Positions 31,982 to 39,477 of a DNA stretch of 39,991 bases are shown here, piece by piece; within the stretch, counting starts at the first letter, position 1, and each line of letters begins with the position of its first letter. The notes under the pieces were generated by a model. It worked only from the letters and a program-made list of their open reading frames with translations. It was not told where the DNA came from and did not search any database. A program made the position numbers and the translations under genes. Source of the DNA: Actinomycetes bacterium (GTDB taxonomy: Bacteria; Actinomycetota; Thermoleophilia; BMS3ABIN01); the NCBI GenBank assembly GCA_024276735.1, contig JAJRWQ010000016.1, positions 1 to 39,991 on the forward strand, given 5' to 3'.

Positions 31982-32032
31982 GTCCCTGCCTGCCGGCTCC
32001 CGCCCGGCAGCTGCCACCGCGGGACTTTTTTT
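31982..32032 (+). terminator. Rho-independent terminator after the decarboxylase gene
   Basis: GTCCC (31982-31986) pairs with GGGAC (32021-32025), enclosing a second stem CTGCCGG (31990-31996) with CCGGCAG (32004-32010). A run of seven T follows directly. This is the clearest U-tract terminator in the window. Confidence 0.65.
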
Positions 32033-32033
32033 G

Positions 32034-32039
32034 TAAAAT
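32034..32039 (+). promoter_or_regulatory. Candidate -10 box of tRNA-Gly
   Basis: TAAAAT about 25 nt before the mature tRNA 5' end. The -35 region partly coincides with the preceding terminator and is not recognisable. Confidence 0.35.
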
Positions 32040-32064
32040 TGGTGCCGACCGGTCTTCTGCACGG

Positions 32065-32140
32065 GCGGATGTAGCGTAGTTGGTAACGCGTCGGCTTCCC
32101 AAGCCGAAGATCGCGGGTTCGAGTCCCGTCATCCGCTCCA
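32065..32140 (+). tRNA. tRNA-Gly (anticodon CCC)
   Basis: A 76-nt tRNA. The acceptor stem GCGGATG pairs perfectly with CATCCGC, followed by T and an encoded CCA. The anticodon stem TCGGC/GCCGA encloses TTCCCAA, giving CCC, which reads GGG. The T arm has the GGTTCGAGTCC pattern. It is the only RNA gene seen, and a lower-GC, decayed element follows it, as is common at tRNA integration sites. Confidence 0.95.
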
Positions 32141-32186
32141 ATAAACTCCTACTGATAGTGGGATTTCTAGCAGCTTTACTTCCCCT

Positions 32187-32210
32187 GAGAAAAAAGGCCT
32201 TTTCTCTTTC
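32187..32210. terminator. A/T-flanked hairpin after tRNA-Gly
   Basis: GAGAAAAAAGGCCTTTTCTC around the palindrome AAAAGGCCTTTT, followed by TTTC. It is a plausible factor-independent terminator for the tRNA transcript and could work in both directions. Confidence 0.5.
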
Positions 32211-32254
32211 ACAACATAATTCACAACATGCAAGGCCAAAATCAGGGGGTTTTC

Positions 32255-32434
32255 ATGAGGATTCCGAAGGAAGTAAAGACTGCTATCGAGGGCTGGCCGG
32301 GGCGCTGGAGAGCGCTGAGGATCACCGAGGCGGGGTTACAGGTCAGGTATTACCGGAAGGGGGAGGCCGTTGCCGTTCACACCAGAAGCGGACCCGGCGA
32401 TTACTACTACTTGTGGGACGTTACCAGGCAGTAG
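32255..32434 (+). CDS. N-terminal part of a degenerate SWIM-like protein
   Basis: A 59-residue ORF starting MRIPKEVKTAIEGWPGRWRA; the ATG at 32255 has AGGGGG five bases upstream, whereas the in-frame ATG at 32228 has none. It ends at TAG in DVTRQ-stop. The frame continues without interruption into a segment reading TWKRAGELWKHALAV. Aligned with the SWIM zinc-finger pattern (CxC...CKHxLAV), the TAG falls at the first cysteine, Leu at the second and Trp at the third; only the final His remains. I read this as the front of a SWIM-like protein whose zinc ligands are lost. Base composition is lower in GC than the flanks. Confidence 0.5.
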   Translation: MRIPKEVKTAIEGWPGRWRALRITEAGLQVRYYRKGEAVAVHTRSGPGDYYYLWDVTRQ

Positions 32435-32665
32435 CGGCTGAAGACGTGGAAGAGGGCGGGAGAGTTATGGAAGCACGCCCTGGCGGTCATCGATCGCGGG
32501 CCGGACCGGTTCGGGCTGGTGCGCTTAAGCGACTAGCATAGCAGCCGGGGCGGACAGAAGGCCTCGAGGCGCTACCAGGGTCGCAGGAGAGAGGCAGGCA
32601 TCGGCGTCAATGAATCCTGGAAGAAAAACGAAGAGGCGTTAGGCTGGTTCAACCTCTTAACGTGT

Positions 32666-33067
32666 ATGCTTGAATGGTTGAAAGAGGGGCGGGCAGGCCC
32701 GCTATGGGATCTGTACGGAAACCCCCGATGCACTAGGGAAGGGGAAATATGGCTCTACCCAAGGGGCAGCGGAGAAGACTTCCCCTTTTTTCCTTTTTTC
32801 GGTATACGTTCGATGACGAAGAGCTATCTGTCTTCTGAAGCTATGGCCTCCGAATTCGGGCATCATGTAATCCCCACAAACGAACGTGAGTTATTTCAAA
32901 ACGCCTGGCGGACAGTAACAGGAGAGGTGCAAAAGCTCCTGAATAAAATCTCGATAGCCTCGGTGACAATCGGCGAATATGACACTCGCGGCATGACGTG
33001 GCTTTTCCACGCCAAAGGGGCTTTTGAGGCCGCCTTCCTTCGTATTTCCAGGAGTTTACAGGAGTAG
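32666..33067 (+). CDS. Hypothetical protein in tRNA-Gly-linked element
   Basis: A 133-residue ORF beginning MLEWLKEGRAGPLWDLYGN and ending ISRSLQE. No family is recognised. It is soluble, with aromatic-rich stretches (EGEIWLYPRGS, PFFPFFGIRS) and a probable helical region (FQNAWRTVTGEVQKLLNKIS). No Shine-Dalgarno sequence precedes the ATG and the coding-like frame extends upstream to a TAG at 32534, so the true start may lie further left or be lost. GC content and codon use are markedly lower than in the flanking genes, consistent with transfer. It is followed after 5 bp by a small zinc-finger ORF. Confidence 0.55.
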   Translation: MLEWLKEGRAGPLWDLYGNPRCTREGEIWLYPRGSGEDFPFFPFFGIRSMTKSYLSSEAMASEFGHHVIPTNERELFQNAWRTVTGEVQKLLNKISIASVTIGEYDTRGMTWLFHAKGAFEAAFLRISRSLQE

Positions 33068-33072
33068 ATTTC

Positions 33073-33201
33073 ATGACTTGTGCCAAAGAGGGCTGCGAAT
33101 CGGTTTTCCCACGTGGGCGCAGAGGGAAAAAGTATTGCAGCCCTCGATGTAGAATGGCGGCAGAAAAAGCACGGCAGCGAAAACGCAAATCAGGTTCTTA
33201 A
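33073..33201 (+). CDS. Small zinc-finger-like protein (42 aa)
   Basis: A 42-codon ORF, ATG at 33073 with AGGAG eight bases upstream (inside the end of the previous ORF) and TAA at 33199. It contains two Cys pairs, CAKEGC and YCSPRC, separated by a basic linker, and a basic Arg/Lys-rich tail ending RQRKRKSGS. The C-x4-C ... C-x3-C layout suggests a treble-clef or CGNR-like zinc finger that binds nucleic acid. Small proteins of this type are common in mobile elements and phages. It is too short for firm assignment, but the clean ribosome site supports translation. Confidence 0.6.
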   Translation: MTCAKEGCESVFPRGRRGKKYCSPRCRMAAEKARQRKRKSGS

Positions 33202-33220
33202 CTCCACCACGGCGGCACCC

Positions 33221-33465
33221 CTATTCAGCGTAAAAGTACGGCTCCAGTTCTTCTTCCGGTACGTAGCGGGAGACCTGCCTGATAATGGCCTTGAGCGTGC
33301 CCCGGTCCAGCTCCTTGTGCAGGGGGATGACCAGCACCTGGCGTGAACCGCCCGAATGACGGACAAGCTTCACGTGACTGCCCTTCTGTGAGGCATGCGT
33401 AAAGCCGAAGCGGCCAAGGATGGATATTCCTGCTTGCCCGACAGCCGCTTTAACTTACCCGGCAT
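33221..33465 (-). pseudogene. hicA: hicA mRNA interferase, frameshifted
   Basis: ATG at 33465 starts MPGKLKRLSGKQ, the normal HicA N-terminus, then the frame goes wrong and stops early. After a -1 shift near 33426-33430 the remaining frame reads ISILGRFGFTHASQKGSHVK, LVRHSGGSRQVLVIPLHKEL and RGTLKAIIRQVSRYVPEEEL to TAG at 33221. That includes the catalytic-type histidine in GSHVK. One missing base in the codon after GKQ explains it. The gene overlaps the end of hicB by 11 bp. Intact HicA is a dsRBD-fold RNase that cuts mRNA. Either the toxin is inactivated, or this is a base-call error. Confidence 0.85.
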
Positions 33466-33685
33466 GGGCAAGCGGTTCCACTTCGAAGGTAACGATAAGC
33501 GAGGGGTTGGGCTCCAGGTCCAGCGCCGCCAGGTCTTCCCCCTCCAGGTAAAGGGCTACCGCTTCCTGGAGATTGGTTATCGTTTCGTCCAGCGTGCCGC
33601 CCTGGGTAACAACGGACAACCCGGCGCATTCCGCCACGTATCCCGATTCCCCCGGATAAACAAATGCTTTGATGGTTCGCTGCAT
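33455..33685 (-). CDS. hicB: HicB-type antitoxin
   Basis: A 76-residue protein of the short HicB class. The RNase-H-like fold is seen in FVYPGESGYVAECAGLSVVT, the turn TQGGTLDETITNLQEAVALY and the acidic end of that helix. It has no C-terminal HTH or ribbon-helix-helix domain, so DNA binding would need another factor or the complex. It is transcribed ahead of hicA with overlapping ends, the order common for the short class. A perfect GGTTAA-TC-TTAACC repeat lies one base before its ATG. With hicA broken it may be an orphan antitoxin. Confidence 0.9.
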   Translation of the reverse strand: MQRTIKAFVYPGESGYVAECAGLSVVTQGGTLDETITNLQEAVALYLEGEDLAALDLEPNPSLIVTFEVEPLAHAG

Positions 33686-33686
33686 G

Positions 33687-33700
33687 GGTTAATCTTAACC
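33687..33700. promoter_or_regulatory. Inverted repeat before hicB
   Basis: GGTTAA-TC-TTAACC, one base upstream of the hicB ATG and covering the stop codon of the recombinase remnant. The position suits an operator for toxin-antitoxin autoregulation or a site that masks the ribosome-binding region. Confidence 0.4.
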
Positions 33701-33823
33701 TTTCTGCTCCAGCTTTACCACGTTCTCAGCCTCCACTTCCGCCACCAGCGCCCCCGCCAGCTCCGCTGCTGCCCTCAGGGCGTCATCGCGGATATGGGCG
33801 TAGCGGTTCGTCACCGGATGGCC
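33695..33823 (-). pseudogene. Tyrosine recombinase (integrase) C-terminal remnant
   Basis: On minus, about 42 codons ending at TAA 33695 read GHPVTNRYAHIRDDALRAAA, then ELAGALVAEVEAENVVKLEQ. The RYAHIRDDALRAAA block is the hallmark end of phage-type tyrosine recombinases, the Tyr (codon 33802-33800) being the nucleophile. Upstream of GHPV the frame loses similarity (Pro/Arg-rich), so the catalytic Arg/His boxes are gone. The remnant lies just upstream of hicB and ~1.7 kb from tRNA-Gly, marking the inserted origin of this interval. It is too short for routine ORF calling. Confidence 0.8.
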
Positions 33824-33877
33824 GCGCCTCCAGGCAGGAAGGCGGGGGCCGGCGTTGAACGCAGAAGGCGGCGCCGC

Positions 33878-33897
33878 GGCAGCCGCTGGCGGCTGCC
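33878..33897. repeat. Perfect 8-bp hairpin before membrane protein gene
   Basis: GGCAGCCG, loop CTGG, CGGCTGCC, 25 bp upstream of the ATG at 33922, near the right boundary of the decayed element. No T run on the 3' side in either direction. Role unknown. Confidence 0.45.
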
Positions 33898-33921
33898 GGA
33901 AAAACCGGCCCGTACCGAACC

Positions 33922-34704
33922 ATGTCGTCTCTTCACGACCAGGAAACCAGGGTCCTGCGCCCGCAGGCGCAGGCGTCCCCGGCCGGCGGCGGCCGGCGGG
34001 CGGACTTCAAGTGGCTGGCAGGCGTGCTGCTGGTGCCGGCGCTGGTTTTCCTGCTTGCTTCCCTGGCGTTCTACCGGCAGACGCAGCCGGCGCCGGCAAG
34101 AGCGGTGATCACCGAGATGTCGCTGCCGTTTCTTTCCGATCCCCGGGCGGCGGCAACGCTGGAGCGGCTGGCGCCCGACATGCTGGCGTTCCTGGAGAGC
34201 CCCGCCTTCGCCACCGCCGTTTACGAAGATCCTTCCAGGTTACAGCGCCTGGCCGGGGACCTGCCGGACCTGCCGGGGGACGAAGGGCGGGAGCTGGACG
34301 CGGCCCTCACCGTGGCGACCAGGGGGGTGGCGCTCACCAGCAGCGGTGCTCACGAGAGGGCGGCCAGGGCCGTCCTCTTCTCGGCGGCGGCGGTGCTGCT
34401 GCTGACGGCGGCGATGGCGGCGGCGGGCCGCCGGCTGGGCCGGCTGGCCGGGCCCGGAACCTGCTTGCTGGTAGCCTCCCTGTTCTTGTTGCTGCCGGCG
34501 CTGTTCCTGCGTTCCCGGCTGCTGGACGGCCTGTTGTCCAGCGTCGGCGAGGAAGCGGGCGGCATGGTGGCGGCGGTGGCGCGACCGCTGCTGGAGGCCT
34601 TCATCGAGGCAGCAGTATCGGTCTCCGGGCTGGCCCTGCTGCTGGCATTGCTGCTGCTGGCGGGCGCGGCCCTGGGGGCACTGGTCGCCAGGCTGCGCGC
34701 CTGA
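33922..34704 (+). CDS. Hypothetical membrane protein, four predicted spans
   Basis: A 260-residue protein. Hydrophobic segments are at ~31-50 (WLAGVLLVPALVFLLASLAF), ~150-165 (VLFSAAAVLLLTAAMAA), ~178-195 (LLVASLFLLLPALFL) and ~233-255. Between the first and second is an extracytoplasmic loop of ~95 residues rich in Leu, Ala and Asp. The C-terminal ~30 residues are Leu/Ala-rich. No family is recognised. The alternative plus-strand frame from 33855 is Gly/Arg-biased and rejected as a shadow. It ends 15 bp from the convergent WecG/TagA-type gene. Confidence 0.7.
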   Translation: MSSLHDQETRVLRPQAQASPAGGGRRADFKWLAGVLLVPALVFLLASLAFYRQTQPAPARAVITEMSLPFLSDPRAAATLERLAPDMLAFLESPAFATAVYEDPSRLQRLAGDLPDLPGDEGRELDAALTVATRGVALTSSGAHERAARAVLFSAAAVLLLTAAMAAAGRRLGRLAGPGTCLLVASLFLLLPALFLRSRLLDGLLSSVGEEAGGMVAAVARPLLEAFIEAAVSVSGLALLLALLLLAGAALGALVARLRA

Positions 34705-34719: not shown

Positions 34720-35481
34720 TCAGCGGCGGCGCCGTGCCCTGGCCCGGGAAAGCAGCACGGCCAGGCCGAAGCGTGGCAGCGCCACCATGCGCCGGGCCCG
34801 GTGCGGCTCCAGCCAGAGACGGAACAGCCACTCCAGGCCGGCGCGGCGCATGGCGCGCGGCGCCCGTGGCACCTGCCCGGAGATGAAATCGAAGGCGCCG
34901 CCGACGCCGATGGCCACGCGCACGTGCTGCAGGCGGCGGCGGTTGCGGTCGATCCAGAAGTCCTGCTTGGGGCAGCCGTAGGCCACCGCCAGCAGGCGGG
35001 CTCCCGAGCGGTTGATCTCCCCGACGATGGCGTCGTCCAGCGCCGGGTCGGGATCGCGGTCGCTGGTGCCGGCGACCTCCAGGTCCGGCCGCCGCCGTTG
35101 CAGCCGGGCCGCTGTCTCCTCGGCGACACCGTGGCGGCCGCCCAGCAGGAATACCGGCATCCGCTTCTCGGCGCAGACGTCGCAGATGCGCGGCAGCAGG
35201 TCGGTGCCGGTGATGCGGCCCGGCAGCGGTTCGCCCAGCAGCCGCGAGGCCCAGACGATGCCCATGCCGTCGGGCACCGCCAGCTCGGCGGCGTTGATGA
35301 TCCACCGCAGCTCCGGGTCCCTGCCGGCGCGCATCACGTACTCGGGGTTGAGCGTGACCACCTGCTTGCAGCCGTCGCCGTCGAGCAGGGACGATATGCG
35401 GCGGAGCACTGCTTCCTCGTCGTACCGGTCCACCCCGACGCCCAGGATGTCGAGCCGCTGCGGTTCAGCTGGCGCCGGCAT
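34720..35481 (-). CDS. WecG/TagA/CpsF family glycosyltransferase (GT26)
   Basis: A 253-residue enzyme. Family features are DILGVGVDRYDEEAVLRRI, VVTLNPEYVMRAGRDPELR, the catalytic-type AELAVPDGMGIVWASRLLG, RITGTDLLPRI, FLLGGRHGVAEE, VAYGCPKQDFWI and IGVGGAFDFISGQVPRAPR with the following AGLEWLFRLWLEP. The family adds ManNAc or ManNAcA-type sugars to a polyprenyl-diphosphate-GlcNAc. It is used in teichoic acid or capsule linkage-unit synthesis. The end is very basic and could bind the membrane. It overlaps the upstream GT4 gene by 17 bp. Confidence 0.95.
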   Translation of the reverse strand: MPAPAEPQRLDILGVGVDRYDEEAVLRRISSLLDGDGCKQVVTLNPEYVMRAGRDPELRWIINAAELAVPDGMGIVWASRLLGEPLPGRITGTDLLPRICDVCAEKRMPVFLLGGRHGVAEETAARLQRRRPDLEVAGTSDRDPDPALDDAIVGEINRSGARLLAVAYGCPKQDFWIDRNRRRLQHVRVAIGVGGAFDFISGQVPRAPRAMRRAGLEWLFRLWLEPHRARRMVALPRFGLAVLLSRARARRRR

Positions 35482-36586
35482 GATGCGCGAGCACCTCCCG
35501 GTAGATGTCGATGATCCGGGCGTTCGCCGATCGCTGGTCGAAATCGGCCGCGCGCCGCCGTGCTGCCTCGCCCAGGCGCCGGTAGCGGTCCCCGTCGGCC
35601 GCCAGCGCCTCGCCGATGACCGCGGCGGCGGCGCGGGCGTCGGCGAAGTCGGCGAGAAATCCGTTGACCCCGTGCTCTATCAGTGATGACGTTGCCGGAA
35701 TGCGCTGCACCACCGGCACCACGCCGGCGGCCATGGCCTCGACGGTCGCGAGGCCGAAGGCCTCGTACTCGGAGGCGCTCACGAAAAGGTACGCCCGCCC
35801 CAGCGCCGCCAGCAGGTCCGCTGCCGGCAGCTCGCCGGAAAAGACGACCGCGGCGGCGATTCCCAGCGCTGCCGCCTGCGCCTCCAGCTCCGGGCCGATG
35901 CCTCCCCAGTCCGGCCCCACGATCTCCAGGACGGCGTCCGGGTGGTCGGCGCGCACCTGGGCAAAGGCTTCCAGCAGGCGGTCCAGGCGCTTGTTGGTGG
36001 AAAGCCGTCCCACGTAGAGCAGCCGCCCCCGTTGCGGCCGCCGCCTGCAGCCGGCAAACCGTTGCCAGTCGATACCGTTTTCCACCAGGCTGACGTTGCC
36101 CGTGATGCGGGTGAATATCTCCGCGTCGGTGCTGCTGACGGCGATCACCCGGTCGACGCCGCGGATGGTGTTGCGGGTGACGCAATGGAAGTAAGCATGC
36201 TTCAGTGCCGGCATCCAGCGGGTGTGAAAGAAGCCCCCGTGGGTGGAGAGCACCAGCGGCACCCCGTGCTGCCGCCGGAGCCCGCCCAGCAGGTCGAGAA
36301 AGAAGTCGGTGCCGTGAACGTGCACCAGGTCGTAGCGGGGAAGCAGCTGCATGACGGCGGGCGCCCAGAAGAAGCGGGCGTTTCCCCGGTAGGGCACCCT
36401 GATCACGTCGATGCCCGCCTCGCGGGAATAGGGCGGCAGCCGCTCGCCGCTGCCGAAAAGGTGGTCCAGGGTGAGCACGTCGGCGCCGTGGCCACGGTCC
36501 GCCAGGTGCCGGCAGAGGCCGGCGACGTGGGTTTCCATGCCGCCGGTGCCGGGTAGGAACTGGCGTACTACCTGCAGTGTCTTCAT
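35465..36586 (-). CDS. Glycosyltransferase family 4
   Basis: A 373-residue GT-B enzyme. The N-terminal half shows LQVVRQFLPGTGGMETHVAG, LVHVHGTDFFLDLL and VLSTHGGFFHTRW. The donor half shows SLVENGIDWQRF, LLYVGRLSTNKRLDRLLEAF, and the E-x7-E region VSASEYEAFGLATVEAMAAG followed by HGVNGFLADF. The THGGFFHT motif resembles mannosyl- and rhamnosyl-transferases of EPS clusters. It is the first gene of the pair with the GT26 enzyme; the order suggests sequential action on one lipid-linked intermediate. Confidence 0.93.
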   Translation of the reverse strand: MKTLQVVRQFLPGTGGMETHVAGLCRHLADRGHGADVLTLDHLFGSGERLPPYSREAGIDVIRVPYRGNARFFWAPAVMQLLPRYDLVHVHGTDFFLDLLGGLRRQHGVPLVLSTHGGFFHTRWMPALKHAYFHCVTRNTIRGVDRVIAVSSTDAEIFTRITGNVSLVENGIDWQRFAGCRRRPQRGRLLYVGRLSTNKRLDRLLEAFAQVRADHPDAVLEIVGPDWGGIGPELEAQAAALGIAAAVVFSGELPAADLLAALGRAYLFVSASEYEAFGLATVEAMAAGVVPVVQRIPATSSLIEHGVNGFLADFADARAAAAVIGEALAADGDRYRRLGEAARRRAADFDQRSANARIIDIYREVLAHHAGAS

Positions 36587-36710
36587 CGGCGAAGTGATTG
36601 CGTGAGCCCGGGTGCCGTTTCGTGTTCCGGCCGGCGGCGTGGCCTTGATGCCGGCGCCCGTGCATTATAGGATGTTTCGCCGGCAACGGCTAGAGAGAGG
36701 AGAAACCGGC

Positions 36711-37583
36711 ATGAAAAGGTACCTGTACATGGTGATGGTGATTGCCGTGGCGGCGGGCCTGGGGTTGGCCCTGGGCGGCTGCGGCGGCGGAGGCGGCGGC
36801 GATCCCGCGGCGGCGATGGACGAAGCCTTCAGCAAGAGTTCCGACATCAAGAGCCTGCACGCGGAATTCGACATGCAGATGGAGATCAACGCCGAGGCGG
36901 AGGACGTCGACCCGGAGGTGGCAAAGATGCTGCCCCTGGAGCTCAAGGTCTCCGGCAACGGTGACTTCGACAACAACGATCCGCAGGACCCCCAGATGAA
37001 GATGACGCTCTCGGTGAGCGGCCTGGATGGTGTCGCCAAGAGCCTGGCAGAGTCTGCCGCCGGCCCGGCCGCGGCCTTCATCGACCCCTCGATGCTGACC
37101 GACTACCTGAGCGGGATCGAAATGGTGCAGACCGGCGGCAAGATGTACGTGAAGCTCGCCGGTGACTGGTACGACCTGGGCAGCGCCCAGCAGGCGGAGT
37201 CGTATGGCGGCGACGTCAACTGCATGCGTGATGCGGCGGCGGTAAAGCTGGTGCCCTCCCAGGTCTTCTCCGATATCGAGGAGGTTTCCCAGGAGGAAAT
37301 CGACGGCGTGAGCACCCGCCACTACAAGGCCAAGGTGAACACGGCCAACCTGGTAAACGCGCTGACGGAGATGTCCTCCCAGTGCGGGCAGGCGGATACC
37401 ACGGGGCAGCTGGAGAGCGGCACCGCCTCCGTGGAGGATTCCGTGAAGGCGGCCGACGTCGAGGCCTGGATCGATGACGACGGTTACCTGCGGCGGCTGA
37501 AGGTGGACATGGAGCTGGACACCTCCTCGCTCACCGTCATGGCGGAATCGCTGGGCACCACCACCACGCAGTCTCCGGGCTAG
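36711..37583 (+). CDS. Lipoprotein, LppX/LprAFG-like, ending at an in-frame TAG
   Basis: A 290-residue ORF; ATG 36711 has GAGAGGAG eight bases upstream. The signal peptide ends in a good lipobox (LALGGC, Cys ~24) followed by a Gly linker. Then comes a beta-rich domain, from KSSDIKSLHAEFDMQM to WIDDDGYLRRLKVDMELDTS, resembling LppX/LprAFG and DUF6612 lipoproteins that carry lipids or bind envelope ligands. It stops at TAG 37581, directly followed in frame by ATG and 73 codons that look like the missing last strands (MTVNQSKFNETVDISAP). The protein is therefore probably cut short, or extended by readthrough. A TATAGG box lies at 36666. Confidence 0.85.
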   Translation: MKRYLYMVMVIAVAAGLGLALGGCGGGGGGDPAAAMDEAFSKSSDIKSLHAEFDMQMEINAEAEDVDPEVAKMLPLELKVSGNGDFDNNDPQDPQMKMTLSVSGLDGVAKSLAESAAGPAAAFIDPSMLTDYLSGIEMVQTGGKMYVKLAGDWYDLGSAQQAESYGGDVNCMRDAAAVKLVPSQVFSDIEEVSQEEIDGVSTRHYKAKVNTANLVNALTEMSSQCGQADTTGQLESGTASVEDSVKAADVEAWIDDDGYLRRLKVDMELDTSSLTVMAESLGTTTTQSPG

Positions 37584-37805
37584 ATGACGGTGAAGATCAC
37601 CATGACCGTCAACCAGTCGAAGTTCAACGAGACGGTGGACATCAGCGCTCCCCAGAACGCGGCCCCCATCACCGACCTCTTCTCCGGCATGGGAGGTGCC
37701 TTCGGCGGCCTGGATGAGCTCCAGGGCATCGAGGGACTGGAGGAGCTCGAGGATATCGGTGGCGCCGTGGGCACGGCTACCACCATGAGCGGGCTCTCGA
37801 CCTAG
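37584..37805 (+). CDS. Detached C-terminal piece of the preceding lipoprotein
   Basis: A 73-codon frame beginning with ATG immediately after the TAG, in the same frame. It reads VKITMTVNQSKFNETVDISA, then a Gly/Leu/Glu-rich tail (GLDELQGIEGLEELEDIGG) and ends at TAG 37803. Strand pairs of this type followed by VDIxAP close the fold of LppX-like lipoproteins, so it is most simply the rest of the upstream gene. It has no signal peptide and no Shine-Dalgarno sequence. Expression would need readthrough or re-initiation at TAGATG. Confidence 0.6.
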   Translation: MTVKITMTVNQSKFNETVDISAPQNAAPITDLFSGMGGAFGGLDELQGIEGLEELEDIGGAVGTATTMSGLST

Positions 37806-37875: not shown

Positions 37876-38003
37876 CCGTATCCTTGGTCGGCCCCCGGCC
37901 GCCGCCCGCCTTTTTACTTCCTTTTTACGAAAACCTGATCTCCGCCTGACGGCGCTGCCGGAAAATACTCCTGCAGGCAACGTCTGGAGAGGAGGTGCAG
38001 GCA

Positions 38004-38633
38004 ATGAAAAAGAGCTACAAGGTCTTGGCGGCGGCGCTGGTGTTGCTGGTGGCCCTGGCGGCAGGCACCGGCCTGGCGCTGGCCGAGGGTGACGGCGCCC
38101 CCGCCGCCGGGCAGCAGGCGCTCGGCCCCGGAGGGCCCGGCGGGCCGGGAGGACCGGGAGGACCGGGAGGCGGGCCGGGACGGCACGGCCGCCTGGCCGG
38201 GGGCGAGGTGGTGAGCGTCGAGGACGGCGTGATCACCTTCAAGAACCCGGCGGGCGAGGAAAGGCAGGTGCGCGTCGATGACGCCACGGTGTACCGTCGC
38301 CAGGGAGGCGAGGCCTCGCTGGAGGACGTGCAGCCCGGCGTCAAGATAGGCGTGGTCCTGGCCGGCAAGCCCGCGGAAGGGGAGACGCCGCTGGCCAAGG
38401 TGGTCATCGTCGACTTCCAGGGCCGCGGGCACCAGCGTCCCGTGATCGGCGAGGTGACCGCCGTCGACGGGGACCAGGTGACGGTGAATACGCCCGGCGG
38501 CGAGCGCAGCTTCACGATCCCGGCGATCGAGACGGGATCGCGGCTGGGAGTAGTGGCCGGCGAGGACGGCACGGCGAAGGTGCTGATCTTCGACCCGCCC
38601 CAGCGGCAGGCGCCACCCGACGAGGGCGAATGA
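38004..38633 (+). CDS. Secreted DUF5666-like protein with Gly-Pro repeat
   Basis: A 209-residue exported protein. ATG 38004 has GGAGG eight bases upstream. A signal peptide (MKKSYKVLAAALVLLVALAA) ends near ALA-EG. A flexible GPGGPGGPGG repeat lies at ~42-58. Two beta-rich units follow: GEVVSVEDGVITFKNPAGEE ~68 and GEVTAVDGDQVTVNTPGGER ~151, each of the DUF5666 type (short strands, Gly turns, then GVKIGVVLAG). The family is found in secreted proteins and has no known reaction. It precedes a two-component system, separated by a strong hairpin. Confidence 0.85.
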   Translation: MKKSYKVLAAALVLLVALAAGTGLALAEGDGAPAAGQQALGPGGPGGPGGPGGPGGGPGRHGRLAGGEVVSVEDGVITFKNPAGEERQVRVDDATVYRRQGGEASLEDVQPGVKIGVVLAGKPAEGETPLAKVVIVDFQGRGHQRPVIGEVTAVDGDQVTVNTPGGERSFTIPAIETGSRLGVVAGEDGTAKVLIFDPPQRQAPPDEGE

Positions 38634-38772: not shown

Positions 38773-39477
38773 ATGGCGGCGGCGACAAGCATGGAGACGT
38801 CGATGGCGGCAAGGTCGATCGTGCTGGTGGAAGACGAGGACAGCATCGCCTCCTTCGTGGCCATGTACCTGGAGAAGGAGGGCTTCACCGTGCAGGTGGC
38901 GGCGGACGGCGAGACGGGCCTGGACCTGGTGCGCAGCCAGCGCCCCCAGCTGGTGATCCTGGACGTGATGCTGCCCGACATCGACGGCTTCGAGGTATGC
39001 CGGCGCCTGCGGCGCGAATCGGACGTGCCGGTGATCATGCTCACCGCCCGCGATGCTCCCACGGACAAGGTGGTGGGGCTGGAGATCGGTGCCGACGACT
39101 ACGTCACCAAGCCCTTCGATCCCCGCGAGCTGGTGGCGCGGGTGCGCTCGGTGCTGAGGCGGTATGCGCGCGATGACCGGGACCGGGAACGCCCCCTGCA
39201 GGTGGGCGGGGTAGCCCTCGACCCGGGAAGCCGCGAGGTGGAGGCCGCCGGCGATCCCGTGCGCCTGACGGCAAAGGAATTCGACCTGCTCCACTACCTG
39301 ATGCTGAACGCCGGCCTGGCGCTCAGCCGTAACCAGCTGCTGGAGGAGGTCTGGGGTTTCCAGTTCGCCGGGGATACCCGCACCGTGGACGTCCACGTCA
39401 ACCAGCTGCGCAAGAAGCTCGGCGGCGCGGTGACCATCGAGACGGTGCGGGGCGTAGGCTACAAGCTGCGGCGGTGA
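38773..39477 (+). CDS. OmpR/PhoB-family response regulator
   Basis: A 234-residue regulator. The receiver (~15-130) has VLVEDEDSI, phosphoacceptor Asp in VILDVMLPDIDG, the conserved Thr in IMLTARD and Lys in DDYVTKPFDPREL. The C-terminal winged helix (~145-234) has LTAKEFDLLHYLMLNAG, LLEEVWGF, RTVDVHVNQLRKKLG and VRGVGYKLRR, all typical of OmpR/PhoB. ATG 38773 is chosen because TATAAT lies 8 nt upstream, giving a leaderless message; ATGs at 38791 and 38803 are alternatives nearer the domain edge. The partner kinase starts 28 bp downstream. Confidence 0.96.
   Translation: MAAATSMETSMAARSIVLVEDEDSIASFVAMYLEKEGFTVQVAADGETGLDLVRSQRPQLVILDVMLPDIDGFEVCRRLRRESDVPVIMLTARDAPTDKVVGLEIGADDYVTKPFDPRELVARVRSVLRRYARDDRDRERPLQVGGVALDPGSREVEAAGDPVRLTAKEFDLLHYLMLNAGLALSRNQLLEEVWGFQFAGDTRTVDVHVNQLRKKLGGAVTIETVRGVGYKLRR

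Follow-up and report, generated by a model that had tools for sequence, protein, structure and literature searches.

An in-frame TAG in a conserved actinobacterial lipoprotein gene, one of 17 stray stops in its assembly, as a probable sequence-level artefact

In an uncultured Thermoleophilia-type actinobacterium, the gene for an LppX/LprAFG-like lipoprotein is interrupted by a TAG codon that we consider, with a probability of about two in three, to be a sequence-level artefact of the assembly. Nor is this gene singled out, as the assembly holds many such stops: 17 in-frame stops inside genes (13 TAG, 3 TAA and 1 TGA) were recovered across the 531 kb that we sampled, and no convincing in-gene stop in 595 kb and 800 kb sampled from two relatives (hereafter G004 and G005). 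We infer that the cause is technical. In the course of events that we favour, a single base change would have turned codon 291 into TAG, immediately ahead of the final strand in a half-barrel presumed to bind lipid; such errors would most likely stem from a damaged template or from an assembly built on thin read coverage. In the living cell the gene is probably intact, and the split in the lipoprotein is most likely no real feature of the biology.

A lipoprotein gene divided by an in-frame TAG

The gene lies on the forward strand of the window, by which we mean the whole 39,991-nucleotide stretch that was analysed (on the contig that we number C83). It opens with an ATG at 36711, meets the in-frame TAG at 37581–37583, continues directly with a same-frame ATG at 37584 and closes at a normal terminal TAG (37803–37805) whose position agrees with the ends of homologues; the two pieces comprise 290 and 73 amino acids, and readthrough would give 364 residues. 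The first-pass annotation had these coordinates, lengths and motifs right, as checked on the sequence and its translation, and the ribosome site and lipobox that it claimed are both present by inspection. A purine-rich ribosome-binding site can be read directly at about 36694–36703, and the translation begins with a signal peptide and LGGC lipobox (36711–36782) ending at the lipidated Cys24, which, together with Gly23, is invariant across 9 aligned sequences. The first 290 codons (36711–37580), open in the nearest relatives, give a narrow pass against PF07161 (LppX_LprAFG; 25.1 bits versus a cut-off of 24) over residues 131–236, within the N-terminal piece only.

Downstream of the TAG, the last 73 codons (37584–37802), in which MTVNQSKFNETVDISAP is located, align continuously with relatives and carry the final beta strand of the same domain followed by a low-complexity tail. 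GC content at the third codon position is 0.89 in this second piece and 0.90 upstream, and the codon log-odds per codon are 0.52 and 0.53, respectively. Judged by codon usage and alignment, the second piece is coding-like and part of one gene, and a chance juxtaposition of two open reading frames (ORFs) is excluded. That the TAG splits one frame running from 36711 to 37805, with the downstream piece belonging to the same domain, was likewise borne out by relatives that encode both pieces uninterrupted.

A profile search of the 19 genomes of the taxonomic family, our own included, found the gene family in 18, with 28 near-full-length members in all, and a premature stop occurs in only two of these members: the present copy and one paralogue in genome G002, where it falls elsewhere in the gene. 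We aligned the TAG column with 22 same-family relatives from 17 other genomes; the residue there is Ile in 9, Leu in 8, Ser in 3, Pro in 1 and Thr in 1, and none of the 22 has a stop. The two nearest relatives, one of which shares the gene order, both have Ser encoded by TCG. All but one of the 22 are open over the sequence present (L020 being a contig-edge fragment), the exception being L028, with its own upstream TAG. This last sequence (G002:C11:27748-28836) is a lipoprotein paralogue from another genus of the family, and its in-frame TAG lies within a Thr-rich linker; a contig title in its bin, G002, gives a coverage of about 4.

These alignments bear on the three options that the first-pass annotation had left side by side, namely a nonsense change, re-initiation and readthrough. 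The nonsense change gained support, as homologues encode both pieces in a single frame and run through both, where ending near the QSPG motif had been named as the contrary outcome. Its suggested origin from GAG found no support, the column never being Glu among the 22 relatives and being TCG in the nearest two; the other two options fared poorly on evidence given below.

In a model of the read-through protein, of moderate confidence overall (pLDDT 64.7) and with pLDDT blocks of 81–88 over residues 291–320, a strand is predicted at residues 292–303, directly after the TAG at residue 291, so that the stop would delete the last strand of the domain. The top nine Foldseek matches of this model are all LppX, LprG or LprF, led by 2byo (LppX, E 1.6e-9), 3mh9 (LprG) and 4qa8 (LprF). 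With these mycobacterial lipid carriers the protein has in common a lipobox, the PF07161 match and a predicted half-barrel fold, and by analogy it may bind a lipid; on the other hand, identity is low (14–18%), TM-scores are modest (0.35–0.37 by query), and our protein is longer, has a Gly/Ser/Thr-rich tail and is interrupted by the TAG. The gene is in itself an ordinary, conserved, exported LppX/LprAFG-like lipoprotein gene, and as a finding it is ordinary too.

The surroundings of the gene are conserved as well. Among named relatives, Bacterium BMS3Abin01 and metagenome-assembled genomes titled Thermoleophilia or Actinomycetes are nearest, and BMS3Abin01 has the same order of two opposite-strand genes, the lipoprotein (there a 365-amino-acid uninterrupted ORF), a Gly-rich secreted protein and a response regulator. 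In the window these neighbours are a gene on the reverse strand that we take to be WecG/TagA-like (34720–35481), a reverse-strand glycosyltransferase with family 4/group 1 domains assigned by Pfam and synteny (35465–36586), a small secreted Gly-rich protein on the forward strand (37995–38633; synteny and a weak DUF5666 match below cut-off) and a forward-strand response regulator with a Trans_reg_C domain (38773–39477; Pfam and synteny). Further upstream, window positions 32001–34000 are lower in GC (0.55–0.61) and adjoin a tRNA-Gly(ccc) at 32065, as in an integrated element.

Stray stops across the assembly

The assembly spans 1.61 Mb in 120 contigs and is 89.6% complete. Its 17 stops were found by a codon-model scan combined with comparison against relatives, and a relative's residue stands opposite each. 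The scan, run with a minimum segment of 75 bases (90 in the control scan), returned 31 candidates, of which 15 were kept, 2 were set apart as probable selenocysteine sites and 14 were dropped as gene boundaries or unresolved. Homology comparison yielded 29 stop columns (9 kept and 20 dropped on visual inspection as lying off-frame, in leaders or at gene ends) and added two breaks, L128:14429 and L131:6906. Among 11 later rows from this genome, 7 were kept, representing six places, and L143:3335, L122:1417, L124:1507 and L133:9000 were dropped, as was L157:3147 for having no relatives. Both added breaks lie close to gene ends, as does L130:14976, where 10 to 24 residues separate the stop column from the end of the gene in the three relatives checked. 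In G004 and G005 the codon scan covered the whole sample and the homology comparison part of it; the scan candidates there (19 and 17, respectively) were judged by eye, and not singly tested, to be gene boundaries, and 7 control stop columns inspected by eye were dropped as leaders or off-frame.

By remarking on how the lipoprotein gene differs from its surroundings, the first-pass annotation had missed the main point, which is that such stops recur across the assembly. Extrapolating from the 17 found in one third of it, about fifty may lie in the whole, and any other split gene from this genome calls for comparison with relatives before it is described as unusual. The interrupted genes include a NAD synthase with a CN-hydrolase domain, broken at the Glu of FPELALTGYP; the beta subunit of phenylalanyl-tRNA synthetase (PheRS), with the stop inside the FDX-ACB domain; a transpeptidase-domain penicillin-binding protein (PBP); a trypsin-like protease, presumably of the HtrA type; and the C-terminal end of threonyl-tRNA synthetase. 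An artefact would be expected to appear as an excess in one assembly, to lack a convincing case in relatives and to span unrelated and essential-type genes, and this is the pattern observed.

Were the stops instead real nonsense mutations in a strain under biased G-to-T mutation pressure, the lipoprotein would be truncated and its fold lost. This is the main rival, and we consider it unlikely. It accords with the state of the second piece, which has kept its coding character and gained no other stop or shift, as expected if the mutation were recent, and with the sequence context of the changes described below. Against it, truncation of NAD synthase, PheRS beta, the PBP and the like should harm or kill the cell, lethality being the general expectation for such genes, and the stops are not accompanied by frameshift-like pairs, of which we found none in this genome over the 137 and 195 kb compared and one in G005, in a comparison whose codon model for this genome was poorly trained; decay of whole genes was rejected on the same result. 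The 17 stops also include two pairs within 250 bp, a degree of clustering reached in only 37 of 5000 random placements, although at 2000 bp it is not notable (310 of 5000). Error is thus favoured over real mutation because genes of lethal type are hit, frameshifts are absent, a single assembly is affected and stops occur in close pairs.

A deficiency in repair would offer this rival a cause, and MutY is over its curated cut-off in 0 of the 19 family genomes. We rejected its loss as the explanation, as it is not specific to our genome: G004 and G005 likewise lack a match over the cut-off, yet contain no such stops. Fpg/MutM, by contrast, is over its cut-off in 16 of the 19, our genome included, which further counts against real mutation.

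Kind of base change

At the 17 stops, relatives have Glu in 12 cases and Ser in 2 (L157:9878 and 37581 itself); the remaining three have Asp, Leu and Trp. A single relative was seen at four of the 17 (L131:6671, L131:6906, L145 and L155). All six distinct places displayed for L157:9878 have Ser, L136:4894 has Gln in the nearest relative and Glu in the next three, and L124:17018 has Glu in G004 and Ser in G005. Glu becomes a stop by a G-to-T change in the dinucleotide GA, and Ser becomes TAG, as at 37581, by a C-to-A change in TC; most of the stops fit the former or, as at 37581, the latter, and three (with Asp, Leu and Trp in relatives) do not fit the simple change.

Glu would be expected at 32% of TAG and TAA breaks if all substitutions were equal and at 63% under G:C-to-T:A changes alone; it was seen at 12 of 16, and the chance of at least 12 is 6e-4 under uniform substitution and 0.23 under G:C-to-T:A alone. 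Tyr is found at none of the 16, for which the chance is 0.02 under G:C-to-T:A alone, where TAC to TAA would be expected; a GA context would explain its absence. That context recurs in aligned codons at large, in a split by neighbouring base that was chosen after an excess of Asp-to-Tyr changes had been seen: before A, G-to-T changes outnumber the reverse by 24 to 7, compared with 292:500 before other 3′ bases (Fisher p 8e-6, from two reference comparisons that overlap in sites, the counts not being independent). In the control pair the corresponding ratios were 6:6 and 265:263. With the five Glu-to-stop columns removed, sense codons still show 19:7 (p 2.5e-4), which speaks against recoding of TAG alone; the process seems to act on the letters of the DNA rather than on the meaning of TAG.

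Other signals are slighter. Asp-to-Tyr changes number 13 against 1 in reverse (p 0.002 against even odds), or 13 of 3661 reference Asp compared with 4 of 3029 in the control pair; the control counts of 3 and 1 are too small for a contrast with 13 and 1 (p 0.41), and taken alone the Asp-to-Tyr figure is weak evidence. Phe of relatives stands opposite TTA in 4 of 16 such codons of our genome and 2 of 56 in controls (p 0.02), and Ser-to-Tyr at 18 against 12 is only suggestive. After T, C-to-A changes are not in excess overall (18 versus 23), and the counts therefore fail to show the symmetry between strands that an artefact should produce. Nor do Gly-to-Val, Gly-to-Cys, Ala-to-Asp or Arg-to-Leu changes show an excess, which argues against a plain oxidised-guanine pattern. 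A three-way missense test, underpowered and run with the same badly trained codon model, gave no excess of G:C-to-T:A changes (21 of 142 versus 17 of 129 and 33 of 185).

Damage artefacts of the G:C-to-T:A kind are known as a class, and the titles and abstract openings of the relevant papers agree; among titles on assembly artefacts, nothing was on point. Our changes resemble artefacts of oxidative damage or low coverage, so far as those sources go, in running in the G:C-to-T:A direction with no indels seen; they differ in that the excess is confined to G before A.

Decoding of the interrupted frames

Translation might restart on the ATG that abuts the TAG and yield two proteins, TAGATG being a type of junction generally able to couple translation. 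We regard this as scarcely credible. Uninterrupted relatives keep the Met (as in ESMSI and ETMTL), which makes it an ordinary internal codon; no Shine–Dalgarno-like stretch precedes the ATG at 37584 by inspection; and a re-initiated 73-amino-acid piece, having no signal peptide, would remain cytoplasmic and be separated from the strands that it pairs with. ATG, GTG or TTG, moreover, directly follows none of the 16 other stops.

Readthrough, the remaining option of the first-pass annotation, found no more favour: relatives have no stop at the TAG column, no stable stem-loop or recoding element follows the TAG (RNA fold z −0.74), and TAG is a normal terminator in this genome. Among ORFs that could be compared in our sample, 49 of 56 ending in TAG, 21 of 24 in TAA and 115 of 124 in TGA terminate at the homologous place, and a profile search of the genome found release factor RF1 (contig C106, 500.9 bits). 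With RF1 kept and TAG ending genes where homologues end, TAG is, on this genomic evidence, not reassigned. Pyrrolysine insertion was rejected on the finding that PylS is over its cut-off in 0 of the 19 family genomes, ours being about 90% complete. The stops are like those of pyrrolysine (TAG) or selenocysteine (TGA) recoding in falling in frame within conserved genes, in a genome that has SelB; unlike in pyrrolysine recoding, relatives have sense codons at the TAG sites and PylS is missing above the cut-off. Across the 60 genomes searched, PylS is over its curated cut-off in 10, all from other families of the class (f3 and f5).

The stops could be tolerable if TAG and TAA were partly read, giving full-length protein, by a suppressor tRNA such as a tRNA-Glu whose anticodon is UUA or CUA. 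In its full form this account, which we find very improbable, supposes a lineage with a natural Glu-inserting ochre or amber suppressor together with an unusual GA-to-TA mutation pressure supplying the stops; TAG and TAA would then be ambiguous, tolerated inside essential genes yet still ending most genes, an arrangement to which we give as little credence. The alignment of 12 of the 16 TAG and TAA sites with Glu speaks for it, and a tRNA-Glu gene is absent among the 33 tRNAs found, leaving none open to inspection. Several observations oppose it: position 37581 has Ser in the nearest relatives and Glu in none, L157:9878 is Ser throughout, RF1 is present, genes ending in TAG or TAA mostly stop where their homologues do, and a suppressor would not account for the similar change at sense codons. 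Among the 33 tRNAs neither a CTA nor a TTA anticodon occurs, and the sample of our genome likewise gave none with CTA; a CTA-anticodon suppressor was accordingly not found, though tRNA-Glu, Lys, Asp and Asn are all missing from the set. These four absences are probably assembly gaps. Real stops would be a sign that nonsense codons are naturally suppressed in a free-living bacterium; a sequence-level artefact remains the reading that we prefer.

Two TGA sites of our genome, set apart from the 17 stops, resemble selenocysteine codons, and SelB, present here, is over its cut-off in 18 of the 19 family genomes. The first (L127:14017, contig C56) is an in-frame TGA, conserved in relatives, within a PCYCGC-family protein, the part before it matching PF13798 at 55.5 bits against a cut-off of 25. 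Its pattern in our genome is TGA-x-x-Cys, which recurs in one of the six loci of relatives (L257, L260, L255, L264, L253 and L250), the other five having UxxU with TGA twice; we found no literature joining PCYCGC with a selenoprotein. The second (L130:8577, contig C78) is an in-frame TGA in a thioredoxin-like stretch, FFRDT-TGA-PVC, and probably encodes selenocysteine.
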